Source: Mycobacterium sp. UM_CSW
GTDB lineage: Bacteria > Actinomycetota > Actinomycetes > Mycobacteriales > Mycobacteriaceae
Assembly (NCBI RefSeq): GCF_000455205.1
Contig: NZ_AUWQ01000074.1
Span: forward strand, 1 to 64,000
Length of the DNA stretch: 64,000 nt
Direction of reading: 5' to 3'
The notes under the pieces are model-generated. The model saw only the letters and a list, made by a program, of their open reading frames with translations, was not told the origin of the DNA and made no database searches. Position 1 is the stretch's first letter, and every line of letters starts with the position of its first letter. Positions 31,868 to 45,115 of the stretch are shown in pieces. Made by a program: the position numbers and the translations under genes.

Positions 31868-32182
31868 ATGTTAGACAGCCTAGCGGTCACCAACAACCAC
31901 GGCCCTCGAGGGCGCGCCCAGGATGCCGAAGTATTGAAGCAATCCGGGGTGCACAAGCTCGTCGTTCTGGACCGCGACGGCAAGTGCTTGGCATTCGTAT
32001 TGGCTTGGGACAGTTTCGAATATGACGCGGAGACGGACGCCTACGTGTGCGTCGCCGATCGTGATGGCTCCGAACTTCTGACCGTGTACGCCGCCGGTGA
32101 GATCAACTCTGCGCCCGGCGAGAACATGTATGTCGTGACGGCGCCGGACGGGCCCGGCGCGGCACGCCGCGGGCCCCGCTGA
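31868..32182 (+). CDS. Small conserved-type hypothetical protein
   Basis: 104 aa with the ribosome site AAGGGAG eight bases upstream of the ATG at 31868. I do not recognise the family. The visible pattern is a helix, then VHKLVVLDRDGKCLAFVLAW and SFEYDAETDAYVCVADRDGS, which suggests a beta-rich small domain, and a Gly/Arg-rich tail. No membrane segment or signal. It is isolated between a terminator hairpin and the TetR gene. Confidence 0.6.
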   Translation: MLDSLAVTNNHGPRGRAQDAEVLKQSGVHKLVVLDRDGKCLAFVLAWDSFEYDAETDAYVCVADRDGSELLTVYAAGEINSAPGENMYVVTAPDGPGAARRGPR

Positions 32183-32216: not shown

Positions 32217-32238
32217 TATGATAGACCGTTCGTACGGT
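32217..32238 (+). promoter_or_regulatory. Promoter and operator of the mce-linked TetR gene (site 1)
   Basis: TATGAT (32217-32222) is a good -10 box. The palindrome ACCGT-TCGT-ACGGT (32225-32238) follows directly and would cover the transcription start. The same kind of site occurs ahead of the mce operon (33116-33131) and ahead of the Phd-like gene (43546-43561). Confidence 0.65.
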
Positions 32239-32260
32239 TAGTTATGCCGAAGGGTTGAAG

Positions 32261-32932
32261 ATGCCCAGGTCGCCTGGCAGGCGTGGCGAGATTTTGGACG
32301 CGTTCGTCCGCTACGTCGCCGAACGTGGCTATGACAGAACAAATATCGGCGACATCGCCGACGAACTCGGCATGTCGAAGGGCACGATCGTCCATCACTT
32401 CGGCACCAAGGCCCAGATGCTGCGGGAGCTCGAAGAGACCCACCTGGCCCTCCAGCTCGACGTGCTGCGGATGGCCTGGGATCGCCTGGCCGCCCCGCAC
32501 GAGCGCATCGCGGCAATCATTTACGCCTCCGCCCTGCTGCAGGTGAGCGCGCGCCACGCGACGGTCGCGAGCCAGCGCGAGGTGGTTCAACTGTCCGACG
32601 ACCCGGCGATGCAGCACGTACGTAAGCTACGCGATCAGTTGCAGACACACGCGATTGACGAAATCCGCAACGGGATCGACCTCGGCGTGTTCCGAAGCGT
32701 GGACGTCGAATTGGCGGCGCTGCAGCTGTGGGGATCGCTGGAGTGGATGTGGGTGTGGTTCGATCCGGCCGATTCCCGGACGCCTGAAGAAGTCGGCGCC
32801 GCTTTCGTCGACGTGTTTCTGGGCGGGCTCCTGCTCGACCGCCTCGGGCTCGCCAAGTGGGCAAACCCGTCCGCCGGCGTCGTCACGGTGGTGCGTGAGT
32901 GCCTCGCCGCGGTCACGGCTGGGCGACGCTGA
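32261..32932 (+). CDS. TetR-family regulator, probable mce-operon repressor
   Basis: 223 aa from the ATG at 32261 (a TTG at 32255 is possible). The helix-turn-helix is YVAERGYDRTNIGDIADELG followed by SKGTIVHHFGTKAQMLREL. The C-terminal domain has FRSVDVELAALQLWGSLEW, as in the KstR/TetR_C_33-like regulators of lipid and steroid genes. It lies 570 bases upstream of the first yrbE gene on the same strand. Matching palindromes at its own promoter, at the mce promoter and at the Phd-like gene suggest it controls all three. The ligand may be an acyl-CoA or sterol derivative (inference). Confidence 0.87.
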   Translation: MPRSPGRRGEILDAFVRYVAERGYDRTNIGDIADELGMSKGTIVHHFGTKAQMLRELEETHLALQLDVLRMAWDRLAAPHERIAAIIYASALLQVSARHATVASQREVVQLSDDPAMQHVRKLRDQLQTHAIDEIRNGIDLGVFRSVDVELAALQLWGSLEWMWVWFDPADSRTPEEVGAAFVDVFLGGLLLDRLGLAKWANPSAGVVTVVRECLAAVTAGRR

Positions 32933-33502
32933 CGACTGACCGCCAAAACACTCTGCGCGGCAGCCGAATTCGCCGATAGTCGGCGTGCATACGTACCGCT
33001 GAGCCGGCCTGCGCCGGCAGTCGCTACGAGACACAAAAACCCCTGATAAAACCGGGGCGTTCCGCGGACCGCCCACCATGTTTTGGGCGAAAGCGGGCGA
33101 GATTTGCGATTTATTGACCGCACGTACGGTCTAATGCGATAGTTGCAGCGTGGCGCAAACGATGGCGGCGTGGGACCGAAGGGCGGGGACCGGGGCCGCT
33201 GCCTGGGAGGACCGCGGAGTGGGCCAGCACGTCGAACGGCATGATGCGCGACGCCGGGGGTTACACCGAGCACCGCTGGGCCGGATCGTGACGCGTGGCA
33301 GCCGGCAAGCGTCATCACTCGAGCCGCCATCGAAATGCGTTCTGCCGACCTGGTTTTCGGGGCCTACCCACCCTACGGGCAAGGCTGCGAATCGGAACCA
33401 CGCCCGACGTCTCGGCCTCTCCCCCGCGCCGCCCCGACACTCAGCTGAAAGGCCGACAAAAGAGCGGCGAATCGTTACGCATTCGCCTCGGGGGCCGCGC
33501 CG
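32933..33502. other. Long leader region of the mce operon
   Basis: 570 bases without a gene I accept. The promoter region is at about 33114-33143. The remaining 360 bases up to the first yrbE codon would be a long 5' leader. I see no clear riboswitch or small ORF in it. A weak GGGG/CCCC stem near 33035-33060 may end the TetR transcript. Confidence 0.5.
33114..33143 (+). promoter_or_regulatory. mce-operon promoter with embedded operator (site 2)
   Basis: TTGACC (33114-33119) and GATAGT (33138-33143) are spaced 18 bases apart like -35 and -10 boxes. The palindrome GACCGCACGTACGGTC (33116-33131) overlaps the -35 box and the spacer, where a bound repressor would block RNA polymerase. Ten of its central bases match the site ahead of the TetR gene. 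Confidence 0.65.
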
Positions 33503-34297
33503 ATGACCACCACGCACTCGTTCGCCGGCAAAGTGGGCCAACGGATCCGGCCGGGCACCGAAGTCGCCGGCGGGTTCTTTCGGATGTGCGTGCTGACCGG
33601 CAAGGCCCTCAGGCAGCCGTTCGAGTGGCGCGAGTTCATCTGGACCGGCTGGTTCCTCATGCGGGTGTCACTGCTGCCGACGATCGCGGTGTCCATCCCC
33701 GAGACCGTGCTGCTCATCTTCACGCTCAACCTGCTGCTGGCCGAGATCGGCGCCGCCGACGTCTCCGGTGCCGGTGCCGCGATCGGCGCGGTCACCCAGC
33801 TCGGCCCGATCGTGACCGTGCTGGTGGTCGCCGGCGCCGGGGGCACCGCCATCTGCGCCGACCTCGGCGCCCGCACCATCCGCGAGGAGATCGACGCGCT
33901 CGAGGTGCTTGGCATCGACCCGATCCACCGGCTGGTGGTGCCGCGCGTCGTCGCCTCGACGATGGTCGCGGTGCTGCTCAACGGCCTCGTGGTCGCGGTC
34001 GGCCTCGGGGGCGGCTACCTCTTCAGCGTCTACCTGCAGAACGTCTCGAGCGGTGCCTACCTGTCCACGTTGACGGCGCTGACCGGCCTGCCCGAGGTGG
34101 TGATCGCGTTCATCAAGGCCGCGACGTTCGGGCTGATCGCCGGCCTCGTCGGCTGTTACCGCGGGCTCATCGTCCGTGGCGGGTCCAAGGGTCTGGGCAC
34201 CGCGGTCAACGAGACGGTGGTGCTCTGCTTCATCGCGCTGTTCGCGGTCAACGCGGCGCTGACCACCATCGGTGTCCGGTTCGGGACGGGGCGCTGA
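33503..34297 (+). CDS. yrbEA: YrbEA, MlaE-type permease of the Mce transporter
   Basis: 264 aa. Five or so membrane segments with the MlaE family core: GAGGTAICADLGARTIREEIDALEVLGIDP split over residues 111-140. This EExDALxxxGIxP loop is the coupling helix that contacts the Mce ATPase (MceG). After it come LVVPRVVASTMVAVLLNGLV and LGGGYLFSVYL. It is half of the inner-membrane lipid-import channel. Start at the ATG at 33503; no strong ribosome site. The stop overlaps the next start (TGATG). Confidence 0.94.
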   Translation: MTTTHSFAGKVGQRIRPGTEVAGGFFRMCVLTGKALRQPFEWREFIWTGWFLMRVSLLPTIAVSIPETVLLIFTLNLLLAEIGAADVSGAGAAIGAVTQLGPIVTVLVVAGAGGTAICADLGARTIREEIDALEVLGIDPIHRLVVPRVVASTMVAVLLNGLVVAVGLGGGYLFSVYLQNVSSGAYLSTLTALTGLPEVVIAFIKAATFGLIAGLVGCYRGLIVRGGSKGLGTAVNETVVLCFIALFAVNAALTTIGVRFGTGR

Positions 34298-35169
34298 TGA
34301 CCGTCACCGCAGCGGATTCCACGGCGCCCGCCCGATTCTCCTGGGCCAGCCTCAGCCGATACGGCGAGGCCCCGGCCCGGGCGTTGGTCGAGATAGGGCA
34401 GATGGTCTGGTTCGCGATGACCGCCGTCGGGCAGATCCCCTTCGCCATGCGCCGCTACCGCAAGGAAATGTTGCGGATGGTCGCCCAGATGGGGATGGGC
34501 ACCGGCGCGATGGCCGTGGTCGGCGGCACCGCCGCCATCGTCGGCTTCATCACGCTGTCCGCGGGCTCGCTGGTCGCCATCCAGGGCTACGCGACGCTGG
34601 GCAACATCGGTGTCGAGGCGTTCACCGGGTTCTTGGCCGCGCTGGTCAACGTGCGCTTCGTGGCGCCCGTGGCCGCAGGTCAGGCGTTGGCCGCGACGGT
34701 CGGTGCCGGCGCCACCGCGGAACTGGGCGCCATGCGCATCAGCGAGGAGATCGACGCGCTGGAGGTGATGAGCATCCGGTCGGTCGCCTTCCTGGCGTCC
34801 ACCCGGGTGGTGGCGGGTCTCGTCGTCATCATCCCGCTCTATGGGTTGGCGATCACCCTGGCCTTCGTGTCCCAGCAGGTCACCACCGTGTTTTTCTACG
34901 GGCAGTCCGCCGGCACGTACAACCACTACTTCCACACATTCCTGCGCCTCAACGACGTGGGCTGGTCGTTCGCGGAGGTGATCCTGGTCGCGGTGGTCGT
35001 CATGACCACCCACTGCTACTACGGCTACACCGCCAGCGGCGGGCCGGTCGGCGTCGGCGAAGCCGTCGGCCGGTCGATGCGGCTGTCGTTGATCACGATC
35101 GTTGTCGTCGTCGTGCTGACCGCGATGGCGGTCTACGGCAAGAGCCCGAACTTCAACCTCACGGTGTAG
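34297..35169 (+). CDS. yrbEB: YrbEB, second MlaE-type permease
   Basis: 290 aa. It has the same fold as the upstream permease, with GAGATAELGAMRISEEIDAL as the coupling loop and SIRSVAFLASTRVVAGLVVI after it. The N-terminal 40 residues are hydrophilic and amphipathic. Together with YrbEA it forms the permease dimer through which the Mce proteins pass lipids or sterols. Starts one base into the previous stop codon. No ATPase gene lies in the operon, which is normal because MceG is shared from elsewhere. Confidence 0.94.
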   Translation: MTVTAADSTAPARFSWASLSRYGEAPARALVEIGQMVWFAMTAVGQIPFAMRRYRKEMLRMVAQMGMGTGAMAVVGGTAAIVGFITLSAGSLVAIQGYATLGNIGVEAFTGFLAALVNVRFVAPVAAGQALAATVGAGATAELGAMRISEEIDALEVMSIRSVAFLASTRVVAGLVVIIPLYGLAITLAFVSQQVTTVFFYGQSAGTYNHYFHTFLRLNDVGWSFAEVILVAVVVMTTHCYYGYTASGGPVGVGEAVGRSMRLSLITIVVVVVLTAMAVYGKSPNFNLTV

Positions 35170-35175
35170 CCGCCC

Positions 35176-36501
35176 ATGACGACCCCAACCGCCTCGGCCC
35201 CGCAAATCAAGGACCACCCGCCACGGATCCCGCCGTACAAGACGGCGGCCGTGGTGTTCTTGGTGATCGCCGCGGTGGTGTTGTCGTTCGTGTGGCTGCA
35301 GTTCCGGGGCCGGCTCACGCCGAAGACGCCCCTGACGATGGTGGCCCCCCGGTCCGGTTTGGTGATGGATCCGAATTCGAAGGTCACCTACAACGGGGTG
35401 GAAATCGGCCGGGTGGCCAGCATTTCGCAGATCCAGCGCGATGGCGTGCCGGCGGCCAAGTTCGTCTTGGACGTCCAGCCCAAGTACATTGACCTGATCC
35501 CGGCCAACGTGGAGGCCAATATCAAGGCGACCACGGTGTTCGGCAACAAGTATGTGTCGTTGACCTCTCCGAAAAACCCGACGCCGCAACGCGTTACCAC
35601 GAGTCAGGTGATCGAGGCGCGGTCGGTGACGACGGAGTTCAACACATTGTTCGGGACGATCACCTCGATCGCGGACAAGGTGGACCCGGTCAAGGTGAAC
35701 CTCACGCTGGCCGCCGCCGCGCAGGCATTGACCGGGCTGGGCGACAAGTTCGGGCAATCGATCGTCAACGGCAACACCATCCTTGACGACATCAATCCGC
35801 AAATGCCGCAGATCCGCCACGACATTGCGCGGTTGGCGGCCCTCGGCGACACCTACGCGAACGCCGCACCGGATCTGTTGGACGCCCTCAACCACGCGGT
35901 GGTCACGGCGCGCACCCTGCACCGGCAGGAGGCCGACCTGGACGCCGCGTTGCTGGCCGCGGCCGGGTTGGGCAACACGGGTGAAGACATCTTCCGACGG
36001 GGCGGCCCTTACTTCCAGCGGGGCGCCGCGGATCTGGTGCCCACCGCCCAGCTGCTCGACACCTACAGCCCCGAATTCTTCTGCACCATCCGCAATTACT
36101 ACGACGAAGAACCCGCGGCCTTCGCGACGACGGGCGGCGGCAACGGCTACGCGCTGAGGACGATGACCGAGCTGACGTCGGGGTTGGGCGGCATCCTGAC
36201 GCTGCCGGGGCTGGCCGGCACGGTGGCCACCATGGGGCTCCTCGGGCTGGCCGGGCTGGTGGGCGGCGCGCCGAATCCCTATGTGTACCCGGACAATCTG
36301 CCGCGGGTGAACGCTCGCGGCGGGCCCGGGGGTGCGCCGGGTTGCTGGCAAGGCATCACCCATGACCTGTGGCCCGCGCCCGAGCTGGTGCTGGACACCG
36401 GCGCCAGCCTCGCGCCGTACAACCATCTGGACACCGGCTCGCCGTACGCCATCGAGTACGTGTGGGGCCGCCAAGTCGGGGACAACACGATCAACCCATG
36501 A
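35176..36501 (+). CDS. mceA: MceA-type substrate-binding protein
   Basis: 441 aa. An N-terminal anchor (KTAAVVFLVIAAVVLSFVWL, residues 22-41) is followed by the MCE/MlaD beta-barrel: GLVMDPNSKVTYNGVEIGRV and IKATTVFGNKYVSLTSP. A long helical section (about residues 150-270) follows, then a Gly/Pro-rich tail with TFPYxx-like end YAIEYVWGRQVGD. MceA-F assemble a hexamer that carries lipids across the periplasm. No RGD motif was noticed. First of six mce genes, seven bases after yrbEB and overlapping mceB by four bases. Confidence 0.94.
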   Translation: MTTPTASAPQIKDHPPRIPPYKTAAVVFLVIAAVVLSFVWLQFRGRLTPKTPLTMVAPRSGLVMDPNSKVTYNGVEIGRVASISQIQRDGVPAAKFVLDVQPKYIDLIPANVEANIKATTVFGNKYVSLTSPKNPTPQRVTTSQVIEARSVTTEFNTLFGTITSIADKVDPVKVNLTLAAAAQALTGLGDKFGQSIVNGNTILDDINPQMPQIRHDIARLAALGDTYANAAPDLLDALNHAVVTARTLHRQEADLDAALLAAAGLGNTGEDIFRRGGPYFQRGAADLVPTAQLLDTYSPEFFCTIRNYYDEEPAAFATTGGGNGYALRTMTELTSGLGGILTLPGLAGTVATMGLLGLAGLVGGAPNPYVYPDNLPRVNARGGPGGAPGCWQGITHDLWPAPELVLDTGASLAPYNHLDTGSPYAIEYVWGRQVGDNTINP

Positions 36502-37538
36502 AGATCACCGGCTCCGCCATCAAGCTCGCCATCGTCTCGTTGGTGCTGGCGCTGATCACCGTCTCGATCGTGGTCGTGTTCGCTCAGCTGCGCTTCAACC
36601 GCACCAACAGCTACACCGCGGAGTTCAGCAATGCCAGCGGCCTCAAAGACGGCCAGTTCGTCCGCGCCTCGGGAGTGGAGGTCGGCAAGGTCAAGAAGGT
36701 GCGCCTGGTCGACGGTGGCCGCAAGGCGCAGGTGGACTTCGCCGTCGACCGCTCGATTCCGCTCTACCAGTCGACGACCGCCCAGATCCGCTACCTCGAC
36801 CTGTTCGCCAACCGCTTCCTGGAACTCAAGCGCGGCGACGGTGCGGGTGCCGATCGCGTGTTGCCGCCGGGCGGATTCATCCCGCTGTCCCGTACCTCGC
36901 CGGCCTTAGATCTCGACGCCCTGATCGGTGGTTTCAAACCCCTGTTCCGCGCGCTGGATCCGGAAAAGGTCAACACCATCGCGTCGGCGATCATCACCGT
37001 GTTTCAGGGTCAGGGCGGCACCATCAACGACATCCTCGACCAGACCGCGCAGCTGACCTCGCACCTCGCGGAGCGTGACGAGGCGATCGGCGAGGTGGTC
37101 AAGAATCTGAATGTGGTGCTGGACACCACGGTTCGGCATCGTAAGGAATTCGACCAGACGGTCGACAACTTCGAGCGGTTGATCACCGGGCTGGAAAACC
37201 ACGCCGACCCGCTTGCCGCCGGCACCGCGAACATCAGCAACGCCGCCGGAACGGTGGCCAACCTGCTGGCCGACAACCGCGCTCTGCTGCACAAGGAGAT
37301 CGACTACCTGCAGGCGCTCCAGCAGCCGCTCGTGGACCAACGCGATCAGCTCAGCGATCTGATCCACAAGACGCCGACCGCGCTCAACCTGATCGGGCGC
37401 AGCATCGGCCTCTACGGCGACTGGGTGAACTTCTACCTCTGCGACCTGACGATCAAGTGGAACGGGCTGCAGGCCGGCGGCCCGGTCCGGACGGTCAGGA
37501 TCTGGCAGCAGCCCACGGGCAGGTGCTCGCCGCAATGA
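36498..37538 (+). CDS. mceB: MceB-type protein
   Basis: 346 aa. N-terminal anchor AIVSLVLALITVSIVVVFAQL, then the MCE domain with FSNASGLKDGQFVRASGVEVGKV split over residues 43-65, and QIRYLDLFANRFLELKRG. Helices with regular Leu/Val spacing follow (about 160-290) for the tunnel of the hexamer. The end has NFYLCDLTIKWNG, a Cys shared by MceB proteins. Start at the ATG at 36498 overlaps the mceA stop. No proline-rich tail. Confidence 0.93.
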   Translation: MKITGSAIKLAIVSLVLALITVSIVVVFAQLRFNRTNSYTAEFSNASGLKDGQFVRASGVEVGKVKKVRLVDGGRKAQVDFAVDRSIPLYQSTTAQIRYLDLFANRFLELKRGDGAGADRVLPPGGFIPLSRTSPALDLDALIGGFKPLFRALDPEKVNTIASAIITVFQGQGGTINDILDQTAQLTSHLAERDEAIGEVVKNLNVVLDTTVRHRKEFDQTVDNFERLITGLENHADPLAAGTANISNAAGTVANLLADNRALLHKEIDYLQALQQPLVDQRDQLSDLIHKTPTALNLIGRSIGLYGDWVNFYLCDLTIKWNGLQAGGPVRTVRIWQQPTGRCSPQ

Positions 37539-39094
37539 GAACGCTGACCGAATTCAACCGCAGCCGTGTGGGTCTCATGGGCATCACGGTGTTGATTCTC
37601 GGCGTCGTGGTCGGCCAAAGCTTCACCAGCGTGCCGATGATCTTCGCCACTCCGAGCTTCTACGGTCAGTTCACCGACACCGGCCAACTGAACAAGGGCG
37701 ACAAGGTGCGCATCACCGGCGTGAATGTCGGCAAGGTGGAGTCCTTCGCGATCGACGGCGATCATGTCCTGATCAAGTTCAACATCGGCGCGAACACCAT
37801 CGGCACCGAGAGCCGGCTCGCGATCAAGACCGACACCATCCTGGGCAAGAAAGTTCTCGAGATCGAGCCGCGCGGAAACCAGACGTTGAAGCCGGGCAGC
37901 GTCTTGCCGCTGAGCCAAAGCACCACCCCCTATCAGCTCTACGACGCGAACTTCGACATCACCAGGGCCGCCGCCGGCTGGGACATCGACACCGTCAAGC
38001 GCTCGCTGAACGTCTTGTCGCAGACCATCGACCAGACCTACCCGCACCTGAGCGCCACGCTCGACGGGTTGACCAAATTCTCCGACACCATCGGCAAGCG
38101 CGACGAACAGATCAAGCACCTGCTCGCGCAGGCCCACCAGGTGGCCGGCGTGCTCGGTGACCGCAGCGAACAGGTCAATCGACTGCTGGTCAACGCCAAG
38201 ACGCTGCTGGGCGCGTTCAACGAGCGCGGCCGGGCCATCGACGCCCTGCTGCAAAACGTTTCGGCCTTCTCGACGCAGGTGCAGGGGTTCATCAACGACA
38301 ACCCCAACCTCAACCCCGTGCTGGAGCAGTTGCACGCCATCACCGACGTACTGGTGGCGCGTAAGGACGACCTGGCCCAAACCCTCACCTATGTCAGCCA
38401 ATTCGCCGCATCGCTGGGCGAATCCGTCGCGTCGGGACCGTACTTCAAGATCGTGCTGTCCAACCTGTTGCCGTACTGGATCCTGCAGCCGTTCGTCGAC
38501 GCCGCCTTCAAGAAACGTGGTATCGATCCGGAGGACTTCTGGCGCAGCGCCGGGCTGCCCGAGTTCCGCTGGCCCGACCCGAACGGGACCCGGTTCCCCA
38601 ACGGGGCGCCACCGCCGGCACCTCCGGTGCTGGAGGGCACGCCCGGTCACCCGGGACCGGCCGTCCCGCCGGGAACGGCGTGCTCGTACACACCACCGGC
38701 CGACGCGCTGCCGCGGCCGTGGAACCCGTTGCCGTGCACGGGCGTAAGCGTCGGCCCGTTCGGCGGCAGCTTCCCGGCGCCGATGGACGTGCAGGCCTCG
38801 CCACCGAACCCGAACGGTCTGCCCCCGACTCCGGGTATCGCGATCGCCGGGCGGCCGGGCGATCCGCCGCCGGACGTGCCGGGCACACCCGTGCCACTGC
38901 CAGCCCAGACCCCGCCGGGCGCGCGCACCGAGAACCTGCAGCCCGCCGGCCCGCTGCCGCCACCGTCAACGTTCGCGCCCGCCCTGCCTCCGGGGCCACC
39001 CGCGCCGCCCGGACCCGGGAATCAACTGCCGGCCCCGTTCATCAATCCCGGCGGCACGGGAGGCAGCGGCATCACGGGAGGTAACCAGAATTGA
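37535..39094 (+). CDS. mceC: MceC-type protein with proline-rich tail
   Basis: 519 aa. After the anchor GLMGITVLILGVVVG comes the MCE domain (FTDTGQLNKGDKVRITGVNV, then LAIKTDTILGKKVLEIEPRG), then the helical tunnel part to about residue 300. The last 170 residues are unusually rich in Pro and Gly (PPPAPPVLEGTPGHPGP and similar), which is known for MceC and probably reaches outward through the cell wall. Overlaps mceB at ATGA. Confidence 0.93.
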   Translation: MRTLTEFNRSRVGLMGITVLILGVVVGQSFTSVPMIFATPSFYGQFTDTGQLNKGDKVRITGVNVGKVESFAIDGDHVLIKFNIGANTIGTESRLAIKTDTILGKKVLEIEPRGNQTLKPGSVLPLSQSTTPYQLYDANFDITRAAAGWDIDTVKRSLNVLSQTIDQTYPHLSATLDGLTKFSDTIGKRDEQIKHLLAQAHQVAGVLGDRSEQVNRLLVNAKTLLGAFNERGRAIDALLQNVSAFSTQVQGFINDNPNLNPVLEQLHAITDVLVARKDDLAQTLTYVSQFAASLGESVASGPYFKIVLSNLLPYWILQPFVDAAFKKRGIDPEDFWRSAGLPEFRWPDPNGTRFPNGAPPPAPPVLEGTPGHPGPAVPPGTACSYTPPADALPRPWNPLPCTGVSVGPFGGSFPAPMDVQASPPNPNGLPPTPGIAIAGRPGDPPPDVPGTPVPLPAQTPPGARTENLQPAGPLPPPSTFAPALPPGPPAPPGPGNQLPAPFINPGGTGGSGITGGNQN

Positions 39095-40659
39095 GTGCCG
39101 TCAACACATTTCGTAACCTGCGGGCCCGGAGGGTCATCGGGGTGCTGGTGGTGGCGCTGGCGGTGCTGGCCGGATACCTCGGGTTGCAGCTCTACAACAA
39201 GCTGACGACCAACACGGTGGTCGCGTACTTCCCGGAGGCGAACGCGCTCTATGCCGGGGACAAGGTGCAGATCATGGGCGTCCGCGTGGGTGCGGTCGAC
39301 AAGATCGAGCCGGCCGGCGACAAGATGAGGGTGACGTTTCACTACGAGAACAAATACAAGGTGCCCGCCAACGCGTCCGCCGTGATCGTCAACCCAACCC
39401 TGGTGGCGTCGCGCAACATTCAGTTGGAGCCGCCCTACAAGGGCGGCCCGGTGATGGGCGACAACGCGGTGATCCCCATCGAGCGCACGCAGGTCCCGAC
39501 GGAGTGGGACCAACTGAGCCAGAGCGTCGCCAACGTCATCAACAAGTTGGGCCCGACACCCGAGCAGCCGAAGGGCCCGTTCGGTGACGCCATCGAGTCG
39601 TTCGCGGACGGGCTGGCAGGCAAGGGCAAGCAGATCAACACCACGCTGAACAGCCTGTCGCGGGCGTTGACCGCGCTGAACGAGGGCCGCGGGGACTTCT
39701 TCGCGGTGGTACACAGCCTGGCGCAGTTCGTCAACGCCCTGCACAAAGACGACCAGCAGTTCGTCGCGCTGAACCAAAACCTGGCCCAGTTCACCGACAA
39801 GCTGACCGGGTCCGATCGCGAGCTGGCCACGGCGATACAGCAGTTCGACTCCCTCCTGTCCACGCTGCGGCCGTTCTTGGACAAGAACCGCGGCGTGTTG
39901 ACGAGCGACATCGACAACCTCGCCACCCTGACCAACACGCTGGTGCAGCCCGATCCGCTGAACGGTTTGGAGACCGCCCTGCACGTGCTGCCCACGCTGG
40001 AGACGAACCTCAGCCAGATCTATCACCCGACGCACGGCGCGGTCATGTCCATCCCGGCGATCCCGAACTTCGCGAACCCAATGCAGTTCGTCTGCAGCAT
40101 GATTCAGGCCGGCAGCCGGCTGGGCTACCAAGATTCCGCCGAACTGTGTGCGCAATACCTGGCGCCGGTCCTCGATGCGATCAAGTTCAACTACCTGCCC
40201 TTCGGGCTGAACCTGTTTTCCACCGCCGAGACGCTGCCCAAGGAAGTCGCCTACTCGGAGCCCCGGCTGCAGCCGCCGAACGGGTACAAGGACACGACGG
40301 TGCCCGGGATCTGGGTGCCCGACACCCCGTTGTCGCACCGCAACACCCAGCCCGGCTGGGTCGTTGCCCCGGGGATGCAGGGGCAGCAGGTGGGGCCGAT
40401 CACCGCGGGCCTGCTGACCCCCGACTCGTTGGCCGAACTGATGGGCGGCCCGGACATCGCGCCCCCACAATCGGGGCTGCAGACGCCGCCGGGACCACCG
40501 AATGCCTACGACGAGAACCCAGTGCTGCCACCCATCGGCGTGCGCGCCCCGCAGGTGCCGATCCCGCCGCCGGCGCCCGGGCCGGGGGTGATCCCAGGGC
40601 CGGTCGCACCGACACCCCCGCCCGCTGAGGCGGCCGTTTCGGCGGGACTCGGATCGTGA
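39091..40659 (+). CDS. mceD: MceD-type protein
   Basis: 522 aa from a TTG start at 39091 that overlaps the mceC stop (TTGA). The MCE domain is YFPEANALYAGDKVQIMGVR with VNPTLVASRNIQLEPPYKGG; the anchor is VLVVALAVLAGYLGLQL. Helical tunnel region to about residue 300, then a Cys-containing stretch (FVCSMIQAGSRLGYQDSAEL) and a proline-rich end. It overlaps the next gene by four bases. The TTG start may lower its translation relative to neighbours. Confidence 0.92.
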   Translation: MSAVNTFRNLRARRVIGVLVVALAVLAGYLGLQLYNKLTTNTVVAYFPEANALYAGDKVQIMGVRVGAVDKIEPAGDKMRVTFHYENKYKVPANASAVIVNPTLVASRNIQLEPPYKGGPVMGDNAVIPIERTQVPTEWDQLSQSVANVINKLGPTPEQPKGPFGDAIESFADGLAGKGKQINTTLNSLSRALTALNEGRGDFFAVVHSLAQFVNALHKDDQQFVALNQNLAQFTDKLTGSDRELATAIQQFDSLLSTLRPFLDKNRGVLTSDIDNLATLTNTLVQPDPLNGLETALHVLPTLETNLSQIYHPTHGAVMSIPAIPNFANPMQFVCSMIQAGSRLGYQDSAELCAQYLAPVLDAIKFNYLPFGLNLFSTAETLPKEVAYSEPRLQPPNGYKDTTVPGIWVPDTPLSHRNTQPGWVVAPGMQGQQVGPITAGLLTPDSLAELMGGPDIAPPQSGLQTPPGPPNAYDENPVLPPIGVRAPQVPIPPPAPGPGVIPGPVAPTPPPAEAAVSAGLGS

Positions 40660-41834
40660 ACACGCTGCGCGCCTTCGGTATTCGCGTCCGGTACCGGGCG
40701 CGGCAGGCGATGGCCCTGCTGGTCGCCACCGCGGCACTGACGTCCTGCGCCAAGTGGCACGGAATCGCGAACGTGCCGATGCCGGGCGGCCCGGGCAGCG
40801 GGCCCGGCTCGTACATCATCTACGTGCAGATGCCCGACACGCTGGCCCTGAACGACAACAGCCGGGTGCGGGTGGCCGATGTCTTCGTCGGCACGGTGCG
40901 CGCGATCGCCCTGAAGAACTGGGTGGCCACGCTGACGCTGCGGGTGGACAAGAGCGTCAAGTTGCCGCGGAACGCGACCGCCAAGATCGGACAGACCAGC
41001 CTGCTCGGCTCCCAGCACATCGAGCTGGCCGCGCCACCCAACCCCTCGCCGGAGCCGCTGAGGCCGGGCGACACCATCCCGTTGCAAAACGCGTCGGCTT
41101 ACCCCACGACCGAGCAGACCCTGGCCAGTCTCGCCATGATCTTGCGCGGCGGCGGCATCCCGAACCTCGAAACGCTGCAGAACGAGGTGTACAACATCGT
41201 GCACGGCCGGGCCGACCAGATCCGGGCCTTCCTCGGCAAGCTGGACACCTTCACCGCCCGGCTCAACGAGCAGACCGATGACATCACCCGAGCCATCGAC
41301 TCCACCAACCGGCTGCTGGCGTACGTGGGTCCCCGCTCGGACGTCATCGATCGGGTCCTCACCGAATTCCCGCCCCTGCTCAAGCATTTCGCCGACAAGC
41401 AGAACCTGTTGATCAACGCGGTCGACGCGACCGGCCGGCTCAGCCAGGTCGCCGACCAATACCTGTCCGCCTCCCGGGGCGACCTGCACCAGGACCTGCT
41501 GGCGCTGCAATGCCCGTTGCGGGAACTGGGCCGTGGCGCGCCCTATCTGATCCGCGCGCTGAAGCTGATCCTGGTCCGGCCGTTCGACGTCGACGCCGTC
41601 CCGAAGTCGTTCCGGGGCGACTACTTCAACCTGTCGTTGACGCTCGACCTGACCATGAGCTCCGTCGACAACGCGATCCTGACCGGGACCGGATTCTCCG
41701 GAGCGCTGCGCGCGCTCGAGCAATCGTGGGGCCGCGATCCCGAAACGATGATCCCCGATGTCCGCTACACGCCGAACCCGAACGACGCCCCGGGCGGGCC
41801 GCTGGTGGAAAGGGCGGACCGAGGCCAATGCTGA
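40656..41834 (+). CDS. mceE: MceE-type lipoprotein
   Basis: 392 aa from the GTG at 40656. It carries a lipoprotein signal: LLVATAALTSC with the acylated Cys at 31, which is the normal feature of MceE (LprN/LprK) proteins. The MCE domain follows (VQMPDTLALNDNSRVRVADV, then GQTSLLGSQHIELAAPPNP) and a helical tunnel part. It is the lipid-anchored subunit of the hexamer. It overlaps mceF by seven bases. Confidence 0.93.
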   Translation: MNTLRAFGIRVRYRARQAMALLVATAALTSCAKWHGIANVPMPGGPGSGPGSYIIYVQMPDTLALNDNSRVRVADVFVGTVRAIALKNWVATLTLRVDKSVKLPRNATAKIGQTSLLGSQHIELAAPPNPSPEPLRPGDTIPLQNASAYPTTEQTLASLAMILRGGGIPNLETLQNEVYNIVHGRADQIRAFLGKLDTFTARLNEQTDDITRAIDSTNRLLAYVGPRSDVIDRVLTEFPPLLKHFADKQNLLINAVDATGRLSQVADQYLSASRGDLHQDLLALQCPLRELGRGAPYLIRALKLILVRPFDVDAVPKSFRGDYFNLSLTLDLTMSSVDNAILTGTGFSGALRALEQSWGRDPETMIPDVRYTPNPNDAPGGPLVERADRGQC

Positions 41835-43378
41835 CCCCCTTCATCAAGCGTCAGCTGATCCTGTTCGCCCTCCTCAGCCTCGTCACCGCGGTCGCACTCG
41901 GCGGGTACTACCTGCGGATCCCCACCGCGGCGGGGATCGGCCAGTACACGTTGCACGCGGACCTGCCGGCCTCGGGCGGTCTGTACGAAACGGCCAACGT
42001 GGCTTACCGCGGCGAAACCATCGGCAGGGTCACCGACGTCGAGCCGACCAAGTCGGGCGCGCGGGTGACCATGAGCATCGCCAACCGCTTCAAGATCCCG
42101 ATCGACGCGACGGCGAACGTGCATTCGGTGTCGGCGGTCGGTGAGCAGTACATAGATCTGGTGTCACTCGGCAACCCGGGCAAGTACTTCCAGCCGGGAC
42201 AGACCATCACCAAGGGCACCATACCCACCGACATCGGTCCGGCGCTGGACGCCGCGAACCGCGGACTGGCCGCGCTACCCAAGGACAAGATCTCCTCGCT
42301 GCTTGACGAAACCGCCCAAGCCGTAGGCGGATTGGGGCCCGCGCTGCAACGACTGGTCGACGCGACCCAGGCGATCGCCGGGGATTTCAAGACCAACATC
42401 GGTGATGTCAACGACATCATCCAAAACTCCGGGCCGATCATCGACAGCCAGGTCAACTCGGGCGACTCGATCGAGCGGTGGTCGCACAACCTGGACATCC
42501 TCGCCGCGCAGAGCGCGGAAAACGACCAGCACGTGCAAAGCATCCTGACCCAGGGCGCGCCGACCGCCGATCAGGTCAATGCGGTGTTCGGCGACGTCCG
42601 CGAATCGCTGCCGCAGACGCTGGCGAATCTCGAGATCGTGCTGGACATGCTCAAGCGCTACCACAAGGGCGTCGAGCAATTGCTCGTCTCCTACCCGCAG
42701 GGCGCCTCGGAAGGCCAGACCGTGACGACGCCGTTCCCGGGCTACGCGTCGCTCGGCACCTCGCTGACGATCAACCAGCCGCCGCCCTGTCTGACGGGGT
42801 TCCTCCCCGCACCGCAGTGGCGGTCGCCGGCGGACACCAGCCTGGCGCCGATGCCGTCCGGGACCTATTGCAAGATCCCGCAGGACGCTCCGGCCAACGC
42901 GGTGCGCGGGGCGCGCAACCTGCCGTGTGTCGACGTGCCCGGCAAACGCGCCGCCACGCCGCGCGAATGTCGCGACTCCAGACCGTACGTCCCCGCGGGC
43001 ACCAACCCCTGGTACGGCGACCCCAACCAGATCCTGACCTGCCCCGCGCCCGCGGCGCGCTGTGATCAGCCGGTCAAGCCGGGCCTGGTGATACCCGCGC
43101 CGTCCGTCAACAACGGCATGAATCCCGCACCCTCCGACCGGGTTCCGGGGACACCGCCCCCCGTCAGCGATCCGTTACAGCGCCCGGGGTCGGGCACCGT
43201 CCAATGCAACGGGCAGCAGCCGAACCCCTGCGTCTACACGCCGGGCGGCCCTCCGGCGGCGGTTTACAGCCCGCAGAGCGGCGACTTCGTGGGGCCCGAC
43301 GGCGTGAAGTACGCGGTCGACAATTCGACCAAAACCGGGGACGACGGGTGGAAGGACATGCTGGCGCCGCCCCGCTGA
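41828..43378 (+). CDS. mceF: MceF-type protein with proline-rich tail
   Basis: 516 aa from the ATG at 41828, which overlaps the mceE stop by seven bases. Anchor QLILFALLSLVTAVALGGYY, MCE domain with DLPASGGLYETANVAYRGET and VHSVSAVGEQYIDLVSLGN, helical part to about residue 290, and a long Cys- and Pro-containing tail (residues 310-516; eight or more Cys). The tail probably forms disulfides outside the membrane. Last gene of the operon; no Mam accessory genes follow. A 6-bp GC hairpin lies 130 bases downstream. Confidence 0.93.
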   Translation: MLTPFIKRQLILFALLSLVTAVALGGYYLRIPTAAGIGQYTLHADLPASGGLYETANVAYRGETIGRVTDVEPTKSGARVTMSIANRFKIPIDATANVHSVSAVGEQYIDLVSLGNPGKYFQPGQTITKGTIPTDIGPALDAANRGLAALPKDKISSLLDETAQAVGGLGPALQRLVDATQAIAGDFKTNIGDVNDIIQNSGPIIDSQVNSGDSIERWSHNLDILAAQSAENDQHVQSILTQGAPTADQVNAVFGDVRESLPQTLANLEIVLDMLKRYHKGVEQLLVSYPQGASEGQTVTTPFPGYASLGTSLTINQPPPCLTGFLPAPQWRSPADTSLAPMPSGTYCKIPQDAPANAVRGARNLPCVDVPGKRAATPRECRDSRPYVPAGTNPWYGDPNQILTCPAPAARCDQPVKPGLVIPAPSVNNGMNPAPSDRVPGTPPPVSDPLQRPGSGTVQCNGQQPNPCVYTPGGPPAAVYSPQSGDFVGPDGVKYAVDNSTKTGDDGWKDMLAPPR

Positions 43379-43510
43379 GCTTGCGTCCGGTGAATCTCGT
43401 TGATTTGCAACGCTTTTAGCAATACCCAAAGGTCCTGGGCAACAAGAGGGTCGCCCTCCCCCACCTGACCGCACCCGCACGCCTGGAGGCACGTCGCGCG
43501 GCTCCTCCGG

Positions 43511-43526
43511 GGCCGCCTCAGCGGCC
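43511..43526 (+). terminator. Short GC hairpin after the mce operon
   Basis: GGCCGC-CTCA-GCGGCC is a perfect 6-4-6 stem-loop between mceF and the next promoter. It has no U-tract. A smaller stem (GAGGG-TCG-CCCTC, 43446-43458) precedes it. Terminator role inferred. Confidence 0.4.
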
Positions 43527-43537
43527 TGACCAGGTCA

Positions 43538-43568
43538 TTGACACTGACCGCACGTACAGTCATATACT
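43538..43568 (+). promoter_or_regulatory. Promoter with embedded operator of the Phd-like gene (site 3)
   Basis: TTGACA (43538-43543) is a consensus -35 box. CATATA (43561-43566) lies 17 bases on and TATACT (43563-43568) 19 bases on as -10 candidates. Between them is GACCGCACGTACAGTC (43546-43561), identical to the mce site except for one base (A for G at 43558). Confidence 0.7.
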
Positions 43569-43633: not shown

Positions 43634-44131
43634 ATGCCGGAAGTGATTGGCCTGGGCCAGCTCCGCAGTGACGCGTGCGCATATCTCGAGCGGGTTGCCG
43701 CCGGCGAGGCGCTCGATGTCGTCCGTCGCGGCAAGCTGGTGGCGCAAATCCTGCCGGTCGGCGACTGGAGGGTGGCTCCCATCCCGGCGCGATCCGTCAA
43801 AGCCCCGGCCTCCGACGCGGGCGGCTGGGTCGGGCTCGAGGAATTGCGAACCCGCGCCGGGCGGTGCTTCGACCGGGTCGCGGCCGGCGAGACGGTCTAC
43901 GTCGTCCGCGGCGGGCGGATATTGGCCCGAATCGTGTCGGCCGGTGAGGGCGCGACACCCCCGCCGCCGGCGGACGCTGGCCGCCGGATCGAGCTGGACG
44001 AGCTGCGCAAGCGCGCGGGACGCTACTTCGACAAGGTCGCGGCGGGCCACACGATCGAGGTCGTCCGCGGCGGCAAGCTGGTGGCCCACATCGTGTCGGC
44101 CGCCGGGGACGACGCCCGCAAAGGGGCCTGA
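43634..44131 (+). CDS. Protein of three tandem Phd/YefM-like antitoxin units
   Basis: 165 aa made of three repeats at about residues 5-42, 66-103 and 119-156. Each follows the pattern L-x-x-LR-x-x-A-x-x-(Y/C)-(L/F)-(E/D)-(R/K)-VAAGE-x-x-x-VVR-x-G-(K/R)-(L/I)-(V/L)-A-x-I, for example LRKRAGRYFDKVAAGHTIEV in unit 3. That is the DNA-binding half of Phd/YefM antitoxins. Linkers are Pro/Ala-rich. No toxin gene is next to it. Start at the ATG at 43634 after CGGAGCG; the frame is open to 43538 but that part is the promoter. Three fused DNA-binding units suggest an independent DNA-binding protein. Confidence 0.75.
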   Translation: MPEVIGLGQLRSDACAYLERVAAGEALDVVRRGKLVAQILPVGDWRVAPIPARSVKAPASDAGGWVGLEELRTRAGRCFDRVAAGETVYVVRGGRILARIVSAGEGATPPPPADAGRRIELDELRKRAGRYFDKVAAGHTIEVVRGGKLVAHIVSAAGDDARKGA

Positions 44132-44243: not shown

Positions 44244-44465
44244 GTGCCGGTTAGGTTCCCGTTTCACCCACACGCCGATGCGTCCCGCCGCGCCTGGCTG
44301 CCCTGCCCGAATTGCGGCTGGGGCCGCGACAAGTGCTCGGAGTGCCGCAGCCAGCGCAACTGCGGCGCGCACTGGCAGTACCTGCTGAGCAACCGCGCGA
44401 CGGTGGTCAACCTGCAATGCCCGGGCTGCGCGAACCTTTGGTCGACCGACACCCGACACCGCTAG
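44244..44465 (+). CDS. Small zinc-ribbon protein, possibly iron-regulated
   Basis: 73 aa. Seven or more Cys/His ligands: Cys21/Cys24 (CPNC), Cys31/Cys34 (CSEC), Cys40, His43, and Cys59/Cys62 (CPGC). This should hold one or two zinc or iron ions. I do not recognise the family. The frame begins at GTG 44244. The candidate iron box upstream suggests it is made when iron is scarce. Its last four bases overlap the end of a leftward TetR gene. Confidence 0.65.
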   Translation: MPVRFPFHPHADASRRAWLPCPNCGWGRDKCSECRSQRNCGAHWQYLLSNRATVVNLQCPGCANLWSTDTRHR

Positions 44466-45115
44466 GCCTCGACGAGCGCGTCGTCGGGCAGCGGGCGTTG
44501 GCACACCGCGCGGGCATCCTCGGCGCTGAGCCCGAAAAGACGCAGAACGCTTTCGGTCACGCTGTCGGCGGCCTGTGCGTCGTCGCGATCCGGGTTGTCC
44601 CGCAACAGCTTTCCCAGGCCGAGCAGGGCGCCGCCCGCCATAAAGAGGGCAAGTTCGGGATCGTCGACCGTGAACCTGCCCATGTCGACGCCGGCCTTGA
44701 TGTCACGCAGCGCCCGCGGGGCCAGGCCTCGATCGGACGACAGCAGCGCCAGCCCGTTGGCCAGCAGGATGTCGCTCTCCCGCGGCCGCCGGCGGAATAG
44801 CCGGCCGATCAACCGGAAGCAGGTGGCAAAGGTTTCGGCCGGGTCGTCGATCGACTCGGTCAGCCGGTCCAGCAGCGCCCCGTGCGCGTCGAGCACGTCG
44901 GCGACCGCGGCCTCGAACAGCTGCTCCTTGCTGTCGAAGTGGTTATAGAAGGAACCCATCCCCACGTCGGCGGCCTGGGTGATCTCCAGAACGGCCACGT
45001 TGGTCTTGCCCTCGGCGATCAGGCGCTGGGCCGCGCCGATCAGCGCCGCCCTGGTGCGCTGTTTGCGCCGTTCCAAGCGGCTGGGCTGGTCCTGGGCTTC
45101 GGGCATCGCGCTCAT
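44462..45115 (-). CDS. TetR-family regulator of the aromatic-ring operon
   Basis: 217 aa. The helix-turn-helix reads RLIAEGKTNVAVLEITQAAD followed by GMGSFYNHFDSKEQLFEAAV. The C-terminal part has TCFRLIGRLFRRRPRES and FMAGGALLGLGKLL. It is divergent from the extradiol-dioxygenase operon with two copies of a TGA(C/G)GATTTCGTCA palindrome between them, so autoregulation and control of that operon are likely. The inducer may be a ring-fission substrate (inference). ATGs at 45115 and 45106 are both possible starts. Confidence 0.87.
   Translation of the reverse strand: MSAMPEAQDQPSRLERRKQRTRAALIGAAQRLIAEGKTNVAVLEITQAADVGMGSFYNHFDSKEQLFEAAVADVLDAHGALLDRLTESIDDPAETFATCFRLIGRLFRRRPRESDILLANGLALLSSDRGLAPRALRDIKAGVDMGRFTVDDPELALFMAGGALLGLGKLLRDNPDRDDAQAADSVTESVLRLFGLSAEDARAVCQRPLPDDALVEA

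Follow-up and report, generated by a model that had tools for sequence, protein, structure and literature searches.

Which regulator governs the mce operon of Mycobacterium sp. UM_CSW, and which other genes share its control? The question is raised by a 64,000-nucleotide stretch of contig NZ_AUWQ01000074.1 (positions 1 to 64,000, hereafter the window), in which nearly identical 16-base sites lie at the promoters of a gene for a TetR-family regulator (starting at 32261), of the mce operon that follows it and of a gene for a Phd-like protein behind the operon. We propose that this TetR protein is very probably a local autorepressor that controls the three units and would be released by a lipid or acyl-CoA; its binding and repression are predicted from the placing of the sites, their conservation and the relatives of the protein.

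Three sites at three promoters

The sites were read directly from the sequence and are given without strand; the promoter boxes all lie on the + strand. Operator T (GACCGTTCGTACGGTT, 32224-32239) is found 1 base 3' of the -10 box of the TetR promoter (TATGAT, 32217-32222, direct reading) and 21 bases 5' of the TetR ATG. Operator M (GACCGCACGTACGGTC, 33116-33131) overlaps the -35 box (TTGACC, 33114-33119) and the spacer of the mce promoter, the -10 box of which is GATAGT (33138-33143); both boxes come from a promoter scan, and appear as TTGAC and cATAGT in the consensus of the orthologous loci described below. Operator P (GACCGCACGTACAGTC, 43546-43561) falls within the spacer of the Phd promoter, between a -35 box TTGACA (43538-43543) and a -10 box TATACT (43563-43568), both read directly; the promoter scan, which was limited to spacers of 16-18, made no call at this promoter, where the spacer is 19. 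The original prediction had announced near-identical sites at the TetR, mce and Phd promoters, with the last two agreeing at 15 of 16 bases, and direct reading bears out both statements. The sites are also rare. Their core, ACCGNNCGTACNGT, has 7 matches in the 6.39 Mb genome (4 for the reversed control), three of which are operators T, M and P, and the four others would predict about 0.007 matches in 11.3 kb.

Conservation across Mycobacterium

The TetR protein (P0001) was searched in 396 Mycobacterium genomes, of which 140 had a match at E 1e-20. In 58 genomes, its own included, the match reaches at least 73% identity, and for the other 57 we compared stretches of up to 18 kb around the gene, a site being counted when it had at most 1 mismatch to RACYGNNCGTAYNGTY and, for TetR, when it lay within 100 nucleotides upstream. 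Altogether 63 regions were fetched; L095-L100 stand outside the 57-locus tally and are treated apart, either for a TetR identity below 73%, for a yrbE gene that was missing or did not lie downstream on the same strand, or for a TetR fragment of 62 residues. This fragment belongs to a second, partial TetR-mce copy in genome G080 (L100, contig C46), in which only TetR residues 1-62 were matched and the stretch holds no site at up to 1 mismatch.

The order TetR, yrbE, mce is kept across all 57 other loci, all 57 have a site upstream of TetR, and all 57 have one between TetR and yrbE. The search of other mycobacterial mce loci that had been suggested for the same site was thus positive in every orthologous locus. 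With capitals for letters above 80%, the TetR-class consensus is ggTTATGATA-GACCGTTCGTACGGTT-AGT, so that operator T is preceded by TTATGATA with each letter above 80% in the 57 loci; the mce-class consensus is TtaTTGACTGacCGTACGGTCTAaTGCcATAGT, and the Phd-class consensus, from 30 sites, is TTGACACT-GACCGCACGTACAGTC-ATATAcT. In each class the promoter boxes stand in register with the sites. It is this conservation at promoter boxes, across 57 loci, that makes T, M and P convincing operators.

A Phd-like gene was found in 49 loci. It is provided with a site of its own in 33 and lies less than 100 nucleotides behind mceF without a site in 15, with a single exception. In 42 of the 57 fetched stretches the gene comes after mceF, and 30 of these have an own site: gaps of at least 100 nucleotides between the two genes have a site in 24 of 25 cases, shorter gaps in 6 of 17 and none in 11 of 17. 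At six further loci the Phd gene is on another contig, with a site in two (L229, L234); in L230-L233 it starts within about 35 nucleotides of the end of the mceF match and has no own site. In L094, finally, it runs divergently from TetR, and a site lies in the interval. The 49 genes include a 57-residue remnant (L055) and two genes for shorter proteins of about 100 residues (L090, L234). That co-regulation appears to be kept either by an own operator or by closeness to mceF argues for a shared function. On these counts (57 of 57, 57 of 57, and 48 of 49 for Phd), the original idea of a self-contained TetR, mce and Phd regulon is strongly supported at the level of sequence.

Of the 57 loci, 30 have a second, distal mce site, in most cases some 110-200 bp further upstream than the proximal one, which may serve DNA looping or a second promoter. 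Since such distal sites could serve activation as well as looping, one might consider that the TetR protein (32261) is an activator, or a repressor at some promoters and an activator at others. This seems quite unlikely: the proximal site is at the spacer or the start region in each class consensus, which is the position of a repressor.

Distribution of the sites relative to candidate regulators

The regulator could also be another protein than the TetR (32261). Contrary to what the original prediction held, the latter is not the only regulator nearby, as a second TetR gene (TetR_C_40 by Pfam) is found at 44462-45115 on the - strand, and the Phd-like protein too is of a DNA-binding family. Antitoxins of the Phd/YefM family repress their own genes by way of palindromes, and TGTACA is a core common to YefM sites; GTAC or TGTACG is found in our sites, one of these precedes the Phd gene itself, and the product of that gene has three Phd modules. 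It is nevertheless very unlikely that the Phd-like protein is what binds them. Seven TetR-positive genomes in which Phd has no match at E 1e-12 (G191, G319, G015, G071, G380, G117 and G320) still have the TetR and mce sites (G334 also lacks a Phd match at this threshold, its contig ending early). Conversely, G276 and G246, with orthologous mce and Phd genes (yrbEA 74-76%, mceF 69-70% and Phd 52-54% identity) and no TetR match at E 1e-20, have no 0-mismatch site in the stretches read, and these TetR-less stretches gave a single hit at 1 mismatch (L220). Each of the 48 Phd matches that reach 70% identity comes from a genome with the TetR orthologue.

The same conclusion is reached outside the genus. 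We collected 31 distant TetR homologues (44-67% identity), 30 of them from outside Mycobacterium, including Amycolatopsis, Nocardia, Nocardioides, Blastococcus, Actinomycetospora and others. A site lies within about 100 nucleotides upstream of 27 of the 31, as compared with 13 of 3027 random windows there, and 30 of the 31 stretches have no Phd match (L186 has one). Moreover, the TetR segment SKGTIVHHFGTK is invariant across 27 aligned rows, and a 40% paralogue, divergent from another mce operon (73% yrbE identity; L097 in G107 and L098 in G122), has SRGLIAHHFGTK in its place; at the paralogue locus both genomes show a different palindrome, GACTGCGCANNCAGTC. Recognition segment and operator thus apparently co-vary in this paralogue. 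Judged by these distributions, the sites track the TetR gene, not the Phd gene.

Use of the sites by another regulator, such as the second TetR, the gene of which ends some 0.3 kb beyond that for the Phd-like protein, is highly improbable. Matches to the second TetR occur in 20 of the 57 stretches, some of which end early, whereas the sites are there in all 57, and the 270 bases upstream of it have no match at up to 3 mismatches. Lastly, that the three sites are mere chance palindromes can be dismissed: loose matches are indeed as common as in shuffled or reversed controls (at up to 3 mismatches, 45 in the window for 45.6 expected from shuffles), but chance would not give the conservation in 57 loci nor the promoter register, and when windows were drawn at random from the same mycobacterial loci, away from these promoters, only 2 of 2812 held a site.

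Size of the predicted regulon

To see how far the sites extend, 42 genomes, picked by hand and mostly with few contigs, were searched with RACYGNNCGTACNGTY; G220, G107, G149 and G034 were kept outside the comparison that follows. The 20 genomes with an orthologue have 68 strict matches, 55 in the locus and 13 outside it (0.65 per genome), and the 18 genomes without an orthologue have 10 (0.56 per genome), about the level of the out-of-locus matches; the reversed pattern has 26 matches in the former and 25 in the latter. As matches outside the locus are at background, the high-scoring regulon would be the locus itself in these species, and weaker targets may exist besides.

Three matches elsewhere in the UM_CSW genome were followed. 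One, near a methyltransferase-like gene (L102), is gone in 6 of 6 orthologues at 81-99% identity and was taken as chance. Another (L101) falls within a gene read by eye as dprE1-like. The third, near a gene that we named by eye as pyruvate-decarboxylase-like (L103; L251, L255), is partly conserved upstream of it: the gene is present in 7 of 8 relatives, with the site at 0 mismatches in two, 1 mismatch in two, 2 mismatches in two and not found in one. The L103 site has a C at position 13, which in operators is nearly always A or G.

A separate observation comes from G034 (L099, L223), where the region around a 35-37% TetR homologue contains transposase-like genes (by eye) and a site, GACCGTGCGTACGGTT, stands about 120 nucleotides upstream of a distant yrbE.

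Lipid metabolism and a model of control

The distant relatives also give an indication of the signal. Several of their operators precede genes of lipid-handling clusters, mostly recognised by eye, in Nocardia (L177, L178), Amycolatopsis (L176, L202), Nocardioides (L180, L204) and Mycobacterium G220 (L095). Twenty proteins selected from L178, L095 and L180 were run against Pfam; one had no match at E 1e-8, and the others gave zinc alcohol dehydrogenase, aldehyde dehydrogenase, AMP ligase, enoyl-CoA hydratase, thiolase-like, alpha/beta hydrolase, pyridine-nucleotide oxidoreductase, GMC oxidoreductase, cytochrome P450, WS/DGAT and MlaE permease families; the L181 and L182 clusters were read at the level of the gene listing. 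In a 36-row tree, the 13 mycobacterial TetRs that are linked to mce group in a single clade (99/96), and a wider clade (98/91) adds the L095, Nocardia L177 and L178, Amycolatopsis and Nocardioides L180 rows, some of the forks between being weak. The closest PDB profile hits of the TetR (32261) are 3vpr, which we take to be PfmR, and then KstR2 (4w97, 4w1u), the operator of which is a different palindrome. From the lipid-catabolism neighbours around its distant relatives, we infer that the TetR senses a lipid or acyl-CoA.

In the mechanism that we favour, a TetR dimer would bind GACYGNNCGTACRGTC-type operators after its own -10 box, over the -35 box and spacer of the mce promoter, and inside the Phd spacer. 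At these places, the bound protein would be expected to shut RNA polymerase out of all three promoters. The inducer would most likely be a lipid or acyl-CoA tied to the Mce cargo, and by releasing the TetR it would turn on the importer, the Phd-like protein and the TetR itself. Tree and cluster content together suggest that the TetR descends from a regulator of lipid-catabolism clusters in other actinobacteria, the control of which would have been narrowed to the importer in this mycobacterial group.

Several observations weigh against this picture of one autorepressor and three units. With a looser pattern at 1 mismatch, the whole genome shows no excess of matches (70, versus 81 for the reversed control). 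The 16-mer is only imperfectly palindromic, and an overlapping 12-mer palindrome, GACCGTACGGTC, is present in many mce sites, so that the exact register of the TetR dimer is not fixed. The distal mce operator of other loci is not seen in the window, where the best candidate has 4 mismatches. Four of the 31 distant homologues (L181, L183, L186, L204) have no site. For the Phd unit, in L082 the gene lies 498 nucleotides behind mceF and has no site, and in L232 and L233 a 1-mismatch match is inside mceF instead of before Phd. Finally, the site at the decarboxylase gene may be a weak fourth target.

For most Mce importers the substrate is, to our knowledge, unknown. Whatever ligand displaces the TetR from its operator should point to the cargo of this importer, and as relatives of the TetR stand among lipid-catabolism genes, the predicted repressor would give a direct handle on the substrate.

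Relation to known regulators

The original prediction had set the TetR apart from known mce regulators, described as GntR-type for Mce1R and Mce2R and as a double TetR for Mce3R. The distinction holds for these: Mce3R, also a TetR-type repressor of an mce operon, is a double TetR with a non-palindromic target (PMC11667970), whereas the present protein is a single unit with a near-palindrome, of 223 amino acids with one TetR_N stretch versus 406 in the Mce3R chain, and a GntR helix-turn-helix is not found, Pfam giving TetR_N and TetR_C_24 alone. The list was, however, incomplete, as KstR, a TetR protein, controls mce4 (PMC1995591).

KstR is a close parallel. As proposed here, the mce4 cholesterol regulon has a TetR autorepressor, a promoter-overlapping palindrome and an mce operon, its lipid-catabolism genes resemble the neighbours of the distant relatives of our TetR, and it is an example of a TetR repressor by which mce4 is linked to lipid catabolism (PMC1995591). 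The two systems differ in operator and in scale, TnnAACnnGTTnnA and 83 or 74 predicted genes for KstR (PMC1995591), GACYGNNCGTACRGTC and three units in one locus here. The KstR equivalog NF033703 is not among the 13 families that this TetR matches at E 0.001, and the KstR operator TnnAACnnGTTnnA is not found at T, M and P, which are of the GACYGNNCGTACRGTY type.

PfmR (TTHB023) of Thermus thermophilus is a TetR regulator of fatty-acid genes. The core of its consensus probe, GACCGATCGGTC, comes near to that of the mce sites, GACCGTACGGTC, and no mce gene stands in the portion of its regulon table that we consulted (PMC7022988). A literature search on the literal site CGTACGGTC with TetR gave, from titles and the starts of abstracts, no paper on this regulator, and one on mce operon, TetR and operator in Nocardia gave the KstR paper alone. 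The present protein would thus add a single-unit TetR to the mce regulators, beside KstR and the double TetR Mce3R, together with a co-regulated Phd-repeat protein.

The Phd-like protein

The Phd-like gene (43634-44131, + strand) codes for 165 amino acids with three tandem Phd/YefM modules, as seen from the alignment and from three PF02604 stretches (PhdYeFM_antitox, 56.8 bits for a cut-off of 29.8). It has PF02604 in common with Phd/YefM antitoxins and differs from them by the tandem modules, by a promoter with the predicted operator of the TetR, and by the lack of a visible toxin in the next open reading frame of the window (44244-44465), which is small, cysteine-rich and without a Pfam match above cut-off. 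A longer C-terminal tail of the toxin-binding kind was not seen in the alignment, read by eye. We tentatively suggest that the protein is a toxin-less DNA-binding partner of the importer, acting as a second regulator. One might speculate further, with the doubt that this deserves, that in about fifty mycobacterial genomes a lipid-sensing TetR controls both a Mce1-like importer and a toxin-free Phd-repeat protein, antitoxin modules having been recruited as a second regulatory layer.

Word searches, judged from their listings, found no paper tying Phd proteins to mce operons. A recurrent association is nonetheless seen in our material, with Phd-module proteins near mce operons or mce-associated-looking genes (L096, L220, L221, L224) where the TetR is missing or has diverged. 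As Phd proteins are close to mce operons in L096, L220 and L221 even though the TetR is missing or diverged there, the link between Phd and mce looks independent of this TetR.

Organisation of the locus

All the genes described in this section are on the + strand. Directly 5' of the TetR gene is a gene for a small protein of 104 amino acids (31868-32182), matched in 56 of the 57 orthologous loci. Neither Pfam nor NCBIfam gives it a match at E 0.001, and no site at up to 3 mismatches is seen in the 1.3 kb that precede it. The TetR gene itself (32261-32932) codes for 223 amino acids and is a clear family member, with the N-terminal helix-turn-helix PF00440 (TetR_N, Pfam 4.1e-14; 52.5 bits, cut-off 24) and PF17932 (TetR_C_24, 6e-17).

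The operon has the layout of an mce operon, two yrbE genes and then six MCE proteins, all six with TIGR00996 matches above cut-off; the starts are approximate for yrbEB and for mceB to mceF. It begins with yrbEA (33503-34297), an MlaE-type permease (Pfam MlaE, 9.6e-56), and yrbEB (34303-35169), a second permease by a TIGR00056 match at 3e-27 that scores 95.9 bits, below the cut-off of 212.2. These are followed by mceA (35176-36501, TIGR00996 at 1.5e-77), mceB (36498-37538, 7e-82), mceC (37535-39094, 2.9e-75), mceD (39091-40659, 8.4e-88), mceE (40656-41834, 2.4e-80) and mceF (41828-43378, 4.5e-76). Further operon types, mce5 to mce8, are given in PMC1810536. Among solved structures, yrbEA and mceA are nearest to Mce1, the best PDB match being entry 8fed for both, with the permease named YrbE1A for the former and chain A for the latter.

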